Source of the DNA: Synechococcus sp. BIOS-U3-1
GTDB taxonomy: Bacteria; Cyanobacteriota; Cyanobacteriia; PCC-6307; Cyanobiaceae
DNA: 64,000 nt
Reading direction: 5' to 3'
Assembly (NCBI RefSeq): GCF_014279975.1
Contig: NZ_CP047936.1
Location: forward strand, 1,922,001 to 1,986,000
Shown: one piece after another, positions 4,748 to 7,695 of the stretch
Layout of the letters: each line of letters starts with the position of its first letter
Position numbering within the stretch: position 1 is the first letter of the stretch
Program-made: the position numbers and the translations under genes
The notes under the pieces: model-generated
Told to the model about the DNA's origin: nothing
Databases searched by the model: none
What the model saw: only the letters and a program-made list of their open reading frames with translations

Positions 4748-5071
4748 ATGCTGGTGGCTCTCTGGATGGCACGACTGCGGCGCTGGCACAGCAGAGTGGC
4801 GCCCTTAGTACTTCTACCGTTGATGACCACGGTCATCACTGGTCTGAGCTATCGGCTAGCGCGCGACTGGTTTGGCATGAGTCGCGACAGCGCTCACTGG
4901 CTGATGAGCCTGCATGAGGGTGAATGGCTAGGACCGCAGCTTGAACCTTTGGTGGTTGTCCTCAACGCGCTGGGCGTGCTCTGGATGTTGATCACGGGCG
5001 GAGGAATGATGGTGCAGTCCTGGAGAAACGCCTGGAAGAAGCGCGGAGTCGACGGTGAGTCGAGGGGGTAA
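4748..5071 (+). CDS. Small PepSY-associated-type membrane protein
   Basis: A 107-residue protein with two membrane segments: one near residues 17-38 (VAPLVLLPLMTTVITGLSYRLA) and one near 68-90 (VVVLNALGVLWMLITGGGMM). Between them lies HWLMSLHEGEWLGPQLEP, a short HEG-type loop seen in PepSY-associated membrane helices. It sits between map and rplS, 33 bases upstream of rplS on the same strand. The PepSY-type assignment is based on the overall pattern (TGLSYR..., LHEG, G...ITG) and the function is unknown. Confidence 0.6.
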   Translation: MLVALWMARLRRWHSRVAPLVLLPLMTTVITGLSYRLARDWFGMSRDSAHWLMSLHEGEWLGPQLEPLVVVLNALGVLWMLITGGGMMVQSWRNAWKKRGVDGESRG

Positions 5072-5104
5072 GCTGGTTGTTTGGCGTGATTACCCGGAGC
5101 TGGG

Positions 5105-5566
5105 ATGGCAGCGGACCAGAAAGACACATCTGCACAAGACAATGCAGATGTCACAAGCACTGAGAACGAGTCCCCGAAGACTGCTGCTCCAGCCGCCAAG
5201 GCTGACCGCCTCAACCCTGCTGATCTAATCAGAGAGTTTGAGAAAGCGCAGCAGAAAACAGATCTTCCCGATATTTACGTGGGAGACACAGTTCGCGTTG
5301 GCGTTCGCATCAGCGAGGGCAATAAGGAGCGTGTTCAGCCCTACGAGGGGGTGGTGATCGCCAAGCGTCACGGCGGGGTGAATCAGACCATCACTGTTCG
5401 CCGCATTTTTCAAGGGATTGGCGTTGAAAGAGTGTTTATGCTGCATAGTCCCCAAGTGGCCTCCATCAAGGTGGAGCGCCGCGGTAAGGTACGGCGGGCG
5501 AAGCTTTTCTATCTGCGGGAACGGGTGGGCAAGGCCACCCGCGTGAAGCAGCGCTTCGACCGCTGA
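5105..5566 (+). CDS. rplS: 50S ribosomal protein L19
   Basis: A 153-residue protein; the last 110 residues are unmistakable L19: [53 protein letters not shown], and a basic tail [22 protein letters not shown]19 sits at the 30S-50S interface. The first 40 or so residues are an Ala/Thr/Glu-rich extension not found in E. coli L19 (about 115 residues), which is common in picocyanobacteria. It is followed 62 bases later by tRNA-Trp and then the PSHCP gene, so a translation-related transcription unit is possible. Confidence 0.97.
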
Positions 5567-5628
5567 GGCTTAGGTCTCGTTCATTTCAATGCCATTGCTT
5601 AAGTGATGGTCGAGGGGTCCATCGCCTT

Positions 5629-5701
5629 GCGCCGTTAGTTCAGTTGGTAGAACGCAGGTCTCCAAAACCTGATGTCGGGGGTTCAAGTCCTCCACGGCGC
5701 G
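5629..5701 (+). tRNA. tRNA-Trp (CCA anticodon)
   Basis: A complete 73-base cloverleaf: acceptor arms GCGCCGT and ACGGCGC with discriminator G, D-arm with AGTTGGTAGA, anticodon stem-loop around CTCCAAA giving anticodon CCA, and a T-arm with GGTTCAAGTCC. No CCA tail is encoded. It lies between rplS and the PSHCP gene. Confidence 0.97.
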
Positions 5702-5738
5702 TCCGATGGCCCTTTCTGCAGTTTCCTAGATTTCGAGC

Positions 5739-5927
5739 ATGGAGTTGGATCTTCAACCTGGTGATGTGGTCAAGGTCCTCGAATCAGCCGCCCTCGGCTG
5801 GGTTCGTGCCCGTGTGATTCGTGTCAAATCCGGAGGACGTGTGGTCGTGCAGAGCGATCAAGGTCGTGAATTTACGGCCCGTGGCAACCAAGTTCGTCTG
5901 ATCGAGCCTGCAGGCTTCCGTCCCTGA
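5739..5927 (+). CDS. Picocyanobacterial hyper-conserved protein PSHCP, Tudor domain, tRNA-binding
   Basis: A 62-residue protein, MELDLQPGDVVKVLESAALG onwards. Length, sequence and setting match the Prochlorococcus/Synechococcus hyper-conserved protein, known to be nearly identical in all picocyanobacteria. Published NMR work on that protein reports a Tudor domain over 53 residues and tRNA binding centred on Lys-30; residue 30 here is Lys, in a basic strand RARVIRVKSGGR. It starts 37 bases after tRNA-Trp and is followed by a strong terminator. Its tRNA neighbours and the ribosomal gene upstream fit a translation role, but the cellular function is not established. Identification rests on my recall of the family. 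Confidence 0.9.
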   Translation: MELDLQPGDVVKVLESAALGWVRARVIRVKSGGRVVVQSDQGREFTARGNQVRLIEPAGFRP

Positions 5928-5963
5928 ACAAGCTGAATTCGTCCCGTCATGGGATCACCATCG

Positions 5964-5989
5964 CCGGTGGCTGTAGCCGCCGGTTTTTT
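5964..5989 (+). terminator. Rho-independent terminator after PSHCP gene
   Basis: An 8-bp stem (5964-5971 with 5976-5983, one G-T pair) with loop TGTA is followed directly by six T residues. It sits 37 bases past the PSHCP stop codon and would end a transcript from rplS, tRNA-Trp or the PSHCP promoter. Confidence 0.85.
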
Positions 5990-6027
5990 ATGCCTTCCTT
6001 AAAGCGCTGTCACAGAGAACACTTGTA

Positions 6028-6054
6028 GGTTCTGAAGTCAAGTTGTTCAGAACC
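6028..6054. repeat. Perfect 9-bp inverted repeat in spacer before tRNA-Asp
   Basis: GGTTCTGAA (6028-6036) and TTCAGAACC (6046-6054) are exact reverse complements around a 9-base loop. No T-run follows, so it is not a simple terminator. It could be an operator or part of a structured leader; nothing in the sequence decides this. Confidence 0.5.
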
Positions 6055-6121
6055 CGAGCAGCGCGTGTATTGACGGAGGGCAGGGCAACAGTCGATACTT
6101 TCGATGTCGCGCGAGCGACGC

Positions 6122-6166
6122 AGATCAGATTCCAACGGACGAGCACCGTCGATCTGAATCCGATCT
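6122..6166 (+). other. Potential hairpin abutting the 5' end of tRNA-Asp
   Basis: AGATCAGATTC (6122-6132) pairs with GAATCCGATCT (6156-6166) at 10 of 11 positions, and an inner ACGG/CCGT pair can extend it. The right arm ends exactly one base before the mature tRNA-Asp 5' end at 6167. It may be a tRNA leader structure relevant to processing; this is inference from the pairing alone. Confidence 0.45.
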
Positions 6167-6240
6167 GGGACCGTAGTTCAACCGGTTAGAGCACCGCCCT
6201 GTCACGGCGGAAGTTGCGGGTTCGAATCCCGTCGGTCCCG
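6167..6240 (+). tRNA. tRNA-Asp (GTC anticodon)
   Basis: A 74-base cloverleaf: acceptor GGGACCG paired with CGGTCCC, discriminator G, D-arm GTTCAACCGGTTAGA, anticodon loop CTGTCAC giving GTC, T-arm with GGTTCGAATCC. No CCA is encoded. The gltX start codon follows 21 bases later, so the two may share a transcript. Confidence 0.97.
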
Positions 6241-6261
6241 TTCTTCATCCCGAGCCACACC

Positions 6262-7695
6262 ATGGTGCGTGTTCGTCTGGCCCCAAGTCCAACGGGCACT
6301 CTCCATATTGGAACGGCAAGAACAGCAGTTTTCAACTGGTTGTTCGCCCGACACCAAAAGGGTCAGTTCCTGCTGAGAATTGAGGACACTGACAAAGAAC
6401 GTTCCAAGCCGGAGTTCACTACCAACATCCTTGATGGCCTCGCTTGGCTAGGAATCGACTGGGATGAAGATCCCACTATTCAGAGCGAGCGGGTACACGA
6501 GCATCGTTCTGCCATCCAGTTGCTGCTCGACCGAGGCCTCGCCTACCGCTGTTACGCCAATGAAGAGGAGCTCGCAGCAATGCGAGAACTCCAGAAAGCG
6601 GAGAACAAAGCACCTCGCTACGACAACCGACACAGGCACCTCACAGCCGAGCAGGAAGCATCGTTCAAAGCCGAGGGCCGTGAGGCGGTGATCCGCTTCC
6701 GAATCGATGACAGTGAGGAGATCCACTGGCGCGACCTTGTGCGTGGACCGATGCAGTGGCGCGGAGCCGATCTCGGTGGTGACATGGTGATTGCCCGACG
6801 CGCTCCCAACGACCAGATCGGGGACCCTCTTTACAACCTTGTAGTGGTGGTCGATGACGCGGCCATGGACATCACACATGTCATCCGCGGCGAAGACCAC
6901 ATCGCCAACACCGCCAAGCAACTCCTGCTGTACCAGGCTCTTGAGCTGACCGCGCCGGTCTTTGCCCACACCCCGCTGATCCTCAATGCTGAGGGGCGCA
7001 AACTCTCGAAGCGAGACGGCGTCACATCGATCAACGATTTCCGTTCCATGGGGTACACGGCCGAGGCGATCGCCAACTACATGACCCTCCTGGGCTGGTC
7101 CGTTCCCGAAGGAATGGAGGAACGCTTCACCCTCACGCAGGCCGCTGAAGTGTTCAGCTTCGATCGGGTGAACAAAGCCGGTGCGCGTTTCGACTGGGAC
7201 AAGCTCAACTGGCTCAATGCCCAGGTTCTGCATGGCCTCACACCGCAGCAACTGCTGAATGAAATCTCGCCGCTCTGGCGCGAACAGGGATGGAGCCTGC
7301 CTGAGGACGTGAGCTGGAGCCTGGCCTTATGCGAACTACTCGGACCATCACTCACCTTGCTGAAAGACGGCATTGACCAGGCACAACCCTTTTTTGTCTG
7401 CCCTGAGCTTGAGGACGATGGCCTCAAGCAACTGGAGTTGGAAGGAGCCCGGGGCGCAATCGGTCAGCTGGTGGAATCCCTCGAGAGTGATCCATGGGAC
7501 GGCGGTGACATCGCAGAGGCTCAGTCCTTGCTTGCCGGGGCCGCGAACAAAGCCGGTGTGAAAAAGGGCGTTCTGATGAAATCCTTGCGCGCAGGTCTGC
7601 TCGGCCGTCTCCAGGGACCGGATCTGATCACAACCTGGTCATTGTTGGCCAGGGTCGGGCAGGACCTGCCCCGCCTGAAGCGCTGTCTCACCTGA
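6262..7695 (+). CDS. gltX: Glutamyl-tRNA synthetase
   Basis: This 477-residue class I synthetase charges tRNA-Glu, which in cyanobacteria also feeds tetrapyrrole synthesis. The HIGH-type motif is HIGT at residues 15-18 and the KMSKR-type motif is KLSKR at about 247-251. The length fits bacterial GltX. The ATG at 6262 is the right start because the protein then begins [17 protein letters not shown]; an upstream in-frame start at 6214 would lie inside tRNA-Asp. The tail overlaps the convergent antiporter gene by 57 bases. As a non-discriminating enzyme it may also charge tRNA-Gln, but that cannot be judged here. Confidence 0.98.

Follow-up and report, generated by a model that had tools for sequence, protein, structure and literature searches.

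Gene identity and layout of the PSHCP locus

The open reading frame at positions 5739-5927 of the window (the whole stretch of 64,000 nucleotides analysed) starts with ATG on the forward strand and encodes 62 residues with lysine at position 30; the length and the lysine are among the features from which the preliminary description had recognised PSHCP. The assignment holds, as residues 1-56 are identical at 56 of 56 positions to the chain of PDB entry 6NNB, which is named Prochlorococcus/Synechococcus Hyper Conserved Protein and is titled 'Solution structure of the Tudor domain of PSHCP'; to judge from the alignment (109 bits, E 2.4e-31), the identity is far above chance. The frame is the already described PSHCP gene of a picocyanobacterium in its published setting, and the order rplS, tRNA-Trp, PSHCP, tRNA-Asp, gltX is that given in the available text of the 2014 report (PMC4215834). 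The features of the locus are as follows.

5105..5566, forward strand: rplS, ribosomal protein L19 (TIGR01024, 156.5 bits; Pfam Ribosomal_L19)
5628..5704, forward strand: tRNA-Trp (cca) by ARAGORN; 5629-5701 by Rfam
5705..5738, forward strand: PSHCP leader, following tRNA-Trp; contains T-rich blocks and, by eye, a -10-like TAGATT (5727-5732)
5739..5927, forward strand: PSHCP coding sequence, 62 residues (6NNB identity and family survey)
5742..5765, forward strand: PSHCP codons 2-9, silently constrained across the family (third-position changes, synonymous entropy)
5963..5989, forward strand: terminator-like hairpin and T tail (9-pair stem, 7 G-C pairs)
6070..6099, forward strand: promoter-like site before tRNA-Asp (TTGACG, 18 bases, GATACT; 9 of 12 matches)
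6166..6241, forward strand: tRNA-Asp (gtc) by ARAGORN and Rfam
6262..7695, forward strand: gltX, glutamyl-tRNA synthetase (TIGR00464, 511 bits)

The earlier reading of rplS upstream and gltX beyond tRNA-Asp is borne out by these profile matches, and its spacings are close: the gap after tRNA-Trp, put at 37 bases, is 34 or 37 bases to the ATG depending on whether the tRNA boundary is that of ARAGORN or Rfam, and the distance to tRNA-Asp, put at about 240 bases, is 238 from the PSHCP stop codon. The terminator that had been assigned to the gene corresponds to the terminator-like hairpin at 5963-5984, followed by T; three such sites occur in 5000-6300, where shuffles give 1.2, and the promoter-like site (one found, 0.4 expected in shuffles) is weak on its own. 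The frame 5' of the PSHCP ATG closes early in the window, leaving 65 open codons compared with 91 in many relatives; conservation therefore does not extend to a longer N-terminus. Directly 5' of rplS there is a 107-codon frame (4748-5071, forward strand) with a sub-threshold match to PepSY_TM (17.3 versus 28.8 bits), possibly encoding a small membrane protein.

Conservation of the protein and its neighbours

We examined 115 PSHCP loci after removing two extra copies of the window's own locus, in a set deliberately enriched with 30 chosen genomes that included the most divergent. Two loci are cut short, leaving 113 full-length copies, of which 96 are identical over all 62 residues (eight of these without a stop at codon 63). 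The remainder comprise three copies of one genus at 93% identity, ten with one residue changed, three that differ in the last two residues, and one that differs at the N-terminus; where a difference occurs in a single copy of a draft genome, it may be an error. The near-total identity across picocyanobacteria that had been anticipated is thus evident, and the lowest value, 93%, lies above the figure of about 90% below which the preliminary description would have doubted the identification. Such identity across the picocyanobacterial clade was reported in 2014, as was a copy with 89% identity in the chromatophore of Paulinella (PMC4215834). In six loci of the set, the aligned parts of the neighbouring genes are 57-80% (gltX) and 71-86% (rplS) identical to those of the window.

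The neighbourhood had also been expected to recur in other strains, and it does. Among 65 distinct loci (67 rows, with the window's own locus present three times), tRNA-Trp is directly upstream in 64, at 33-38 bases, and tRNA-Asp is downstream in 64. In a larger set of 105 distinct copies, 99 have 33-38 bases between tRNA-Trp and the ATG, and the other six have 39-49. The distance from PSHCP to tRNA-Asp ranges from 136 to 1235 bases across loci. Six genomes of the window's genus (L001, L014, L021, L025, L026, and L027) have gaps of 1151-1235 bases here, and that of L025 contains a reverse-strand gene (1756-2751) with a LysR substrate-binding domain.

Distribution of PSHCP

Within the searched scope (the class Cyanobacteriia, phages, and viral contigs), PSHCP is restricted to the window's own family, f1, which we take to be Cyanobiaceae. 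It was matched in 363 of 400 genomes of this family, including 247 of 251 of good quality; in a panel of 60 relatives, the 37 genomes with PSHCP all belong to the family and none of the 23 from other families has a match. The class-wide search matched 64 family genomes and, at E<=0.001, none of about 324 from other families, a figure judged from list order, the printed misses being of other families only. Weak matches (E 0.007-0.1) in nine of these other cyanobacteria compare with roughly 32 expected by chance, and none of the five that we read (G051, G439, G458, G578, G637) looked like a real divergent PSHCP; that in G578 is the SH3-like tail of a large protein. A 924-codon open frame in a cyanobacterium other than that of the window (L333) has a C-terminal barrel-like stretch with 38% identity to PSHCP residues 5-41 (E 0.08), which probably reflects a common SH3-like pattern. 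Weak second matches in G141 and G231 also did not look real on reading.

A second copy was not found in the window's own genome up to E 10, nor was PSHCP matched in any of 50,697 phage records; 34 stretches of viral contigs fit a short PSHCP pattern, and none encodes a relative. The drafts G032 (contigs 4 and 253) and G201 (contigs 102 and 199) each have two copies, probably from contamination or strain mixture. True absence within the family was rejected as unproven after checking 12 of the 37 matchless genomes: in three (G075, G199, G227) rplS is present and the contig ends there each time, and in the other nine, including the good-quality G215, DNA of rplS and tRNA-Trp was not found.

Adjacent tRNA genes without PSHCP

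In two other families (f10 and f11), rplS, tRNA-Trp, and tRNA-Asp occur without PSHCP in all six genomes read. In the four from f10, gltX is next in each, and the spacers between the tRNA genes are 116-390 bases; in the two from f11, the spacer is 204 bases, and gltX was not found nearby. An rplS match is absent from G464 and G474 of f10. Neither inspection by eye nor tblastn found anything resembling PSHCP or nusG in the f10 and f11 spacers, and PSHCP would not fit into two of those in f10, which measure 116 and 125 bases. One f11 spacer has a terminator-like hairpin after tRNA-Trp and a promoter matching at 10 of 12 positions before tRNA-Asp.

These empty spacers point to the likely birthplace of PSHCP, which was probably gained between the two tRNA genes; the simplest reading is that, along the stem lineage of the window's family, it probably arrived with tRNA-Trp on one side and a terminator on the other. 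The species tree (rplS plus NusG, 31 rows) is too small for ordering events. Family f10 does not group with the PSHCP-bearing family in it and is not supported as its sister; f11 is nearer than f10, with weak support (82/33).

Predicted fold and sequence profiles

PSHCP is modelled as a Tudor-like, five-stranded SH3-like barrel. The best AlphaFold2 model, from an input alignment of eight near-identical rows, has five strands and a pLDDT of 86; the other four reach 80, 77, 54, and 53, so that two of the five stand at only 53-54. The first Foldseek match of the model is 6NNB. The best Pfam family is SH3_1 (22.0 bits, slightly under the cut-off of 22.9), the Tudor-related Agenet domain is also under its cut-off (E 0.027), and neither the Pfam family named Tudor nor KOW, whose family cut-off is not reached, is among the matches up to E 1.

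PSHCP was also compared with five cyanobacterial profiles built from only those rows caught by a residue pattern (47 NusG, 19 MutS2, 29 L24, 14 L19, and 30 L11). NusG KOW ranks top, with a score of 22.9 compared with a shuffled mean of 9.8 (maximum 20.4; none of 40 shuffles as high) and a probability of 39% over 27 columns. The MutS2 KOW and L19 profiles likewise exceed all 40 shuffles; for L24, 3 of 40 shuffles score at least as high. Descent as a duplicate of rplS, L24, or the MutS2 KOW was rejected at profile probabilities of 3.7-5%, with 0.3% for the L11 control. Kinship with NusG KOW is weakly suggested by these profiles and is a lead only.

Leader and constrained start of the message

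Two blocks of the PSHCP leader, roughly -16 to -11 and -8 to -6, are rich in T. Predicted pshcp promoters lie within tRNA-Trp, 37 bases in, and 12-14 bases ahead of the start codon, and transcripts with complete rpl19 are given as <2% of pshcp transcripts, those reaching only the rpl19 3' end as 7-11% (PMC4215834, available text). The first codons of the gene are unusually constrained at silent positions. Codons 2-9 changed 43 times at third positions on an 86-locus tree from which PSHCP was excluded, a count so low that it is reached by none of 100000 draws taken from codons 10-62 and matched for degeneracy. Normalised synonymous entropy over 94 loci is 0.20-0.49 per codon for codons 2-9; thereafter it is mostly at least 0.6, with five codons at 0.29-0.58. 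For codons 2-12 of gltX in the same 94 loci it is 0.71-0.98, except for one serine at 0.39, and a general start-codon effect was rejected as the cause because gltX in the same loci is without constraint. An apparent constraint at the gltX start in a 20-copy subset is absent from the 94-copy count.

The pattern is shared with a ribosomal protein gene. Codons 2-9 of rplK are also low in synonymous entropy (0.41 versus 0.72 in 30 genomes), a possible sign of easy initiation or of autogenous control; the PSHCP start is therefore not unique and looks like that of a ribosomal protein gene. In the rplK genes of 30 family genomes (L214-L243), single codons up to 17 also vary little synonymously. Compared with synonymous versions, the start of PSHCP is the less structured (z averages +0.82 and is above zero in 74% of 94), and so is that of rplK (+1.34 on average, above zero in 87% of 30). 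In our reading, selection for easy initiation has shaped codons 2-9 of PSHCP as it would a ribosomal protein gene, and promoter overlap perhaps adds to this. These codons offer a small and cheap target for silent-mutation tests.

Function of PSHCP

PSHCP is a long-standing puzzle, being abundant in very common ocean phototrophs, hardly changing, and without a known relative. The available text of the 2014 report gives an abundance of 8-26 fmol per ug protein, on the order of the RuBisCO large subunit, and pull-down partners that include L2, PsaD, and a Ycf48-like protein (PMC4215834). The tie to tRNA or ribosome use that the preliminary description drew from this gene block is plausible, and had already been proposed in that report (PMC4215834).

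Since PSHCP is abundant, arginine-rich, encoded beside translation genes, and pulled down with L2, the explanation that we favor, with a probability of roughly 0.6, is a protein that binds RNA and assists either the large subunit or tRNA. The single, small, arginine-rich barrel, SH3-like and of Tudor/KOW type, would bind RNA as a clade-specific translation accessory, would sit on rRNA or tRNA near large-subunit protein L2, and would be produced at a high rate. Its gene would have been gained along the stem lineage of the clade, between two tRNA genes that were already adjacent, after which the protein would have been nearly frozen; it is the ribosomal site of action and the reason for this freezing that we infer. 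The fit of the model to 6NNB and to Tudor and KOW barrels, the gene order and spacing kept in nearly all distinct loci, the confinement to one family within the genomes searched, and a start region that behaves like that of rplK are each consistent with such an accessory, as are the L2 pull-down and high abundance (PMC4215834). However, PsaD and the Ycf48-like protein were also pulled down, which fits a photosystem role, and transcripts with all of rpl19 are rare relative to those of pshcp (PMC4215834). Shared neighbors are also weak evidence, as tRNA-Trp lies beside rplS, without PSHCP, in most of the loci read outside the family. Ribosomes in slow-growing cells would be expected at something like 100 fmol per ug, on the assumption that about 8% of protein is ribosomal. 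The abundance of PSHCP is below this expected level, and by this rough reckoning, with the ribosome content assumed and not measured, the protein would be substoichiometric to ribosomes.

PSHCP could instead work chiefly on tRNAs, tRNA-Trp among them, as a chaperone or a helper in their maturation, and not on the ribosome. The two tRNA genes that flank it in almost every locus would suit this, as would the tRNA binding that the 2019 structure paper reportedly described. Nonetheless, tRNA-Trp and tRNA-Asp adjoin without PSHCP in f10 and f11, so the setting says little about function, and we regard a role mainly in tRNA handling as rather unlikely. Picocyanobacterial cells have special photosystems, which the clade restriction of PSHCP would suit, and a further proposal is that the protein links nascent photosystem proteins to assembly at thylakoid-bound ribosomes via PsaD and the Ycf48-like protein, with RNA binding as a tether only. 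Both partners were pulled down in all three strains, although with low counts of one to four unique peptides for PsaD and one for the Ycf48-like protein (PMC4215834), and the same reading is repeated in the available text of a 2016 review (PMC4823308). With translation genes adjoining PSHCP in nearly all loci read and a start region like that of rplK, we consider the photosystem link improbable.

The constrained start could also mean that the PSHCP message is repressed by its own product, in the manner of ribosomal proteins, through a cis element made up of codons 2-9 and the T-rich leader. The operon to which rplK belongs is under known autogenous control in E. coli, and the similarly constrained start of rplK would agree with this, as does a constraint that matched draws never reach and that gltX lacks on the same tree. 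Of the 91 copies with glutamate at codon 2, 87 use GAG, and so do all 19 AT-rich copies, but other glutamate codons in the AT-rich copies are about half GAG (31 GAG, 26 GAA), and the copies are related. Moreover, a conserved RNA stem was not found in the leader and start (consensus energy -0.2, gappy alignment), low structure there is also expected from selection for easy initiation, and the published promoter 12-14 bases before the ATG may account for the leader. We regard self-repression as doubtful.

The last explanation concerns origin, and starts from the genes that take the place of PSHCP elsewhere. In 29 of 41 loci read outside the family, nusG follows rplS and tRNA-Trp: among the 30 best-scoring NusG loci, all from other families, 25 have rplS, tRNA-Trp, and nusG in order on one strand, as do 4 of 11 further hand-picked nusG loci outside the family, with secE between tRNA-Trp and nusG confirmed in one locus. 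Near the nusG of the window's family, neither rplS nor tRNA-Trp is present within the 8-9 kb fetched in 8 of 8 loci, and in the window's own genome nusG is about 590 kb distant from the PSHCP locus. Because nusG occupies the present place of PSHCP in those loci, PSHCP might descend from a NusG-type KOW barrel, the relic of a moved-away nusG copy turned free-standing ribosome-associated barrel, with an mRNA that is in part nearly leaderless, starting from a -10 element 12-14 bases before the ATG, and with codons 2-9 as a self-control site; the f10 and f11 spacers without nusG-like or PSHCP-like sequence argue against this, and we think it very improbable.

Comparison with known systems

Eukaryotic Tudor domains (TDRD3, PHF1, PHF19, SMN, and others) resemble the PSHCP model in fold, with Z up to 9.6, but at just 5-26% identity; 'Tudor' names the fold of PSHCP, not demonstrated descent. 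Spt5-type KOW barrels are the top-ranked prokaryotic fold matches, the archaeal Spt5 KOW barrel having a Z of 8.2-8.6 and 22-32% identity. In the B. subtilis MutS2-disome complex, one chain, which we read as the KOW part of MutS2, matches with a Z of 8.4 and 24% identity; the Spt5 and MutS2 matches trail the best Tudor Z by about one to one and a half units. Ribosomal protein L19, the product of the adjacent upstream protein gene, is also SH3-like in fold class. It shares with PSHCP a local GDxVKV match that none of 40 shuffles reaches, but its profile probability of 5% over 10 columns gives no clear signal of duplication. The closest comparison is with the described PSHCP itself, which the window gene equals in sequence (100% over residues 1-56), in its length of 62 residues, and in gene order, with no difference in the protein. 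Both the protein and its gene setting are already published, and the present analysis adds detail to a known gene rather than a discovery.
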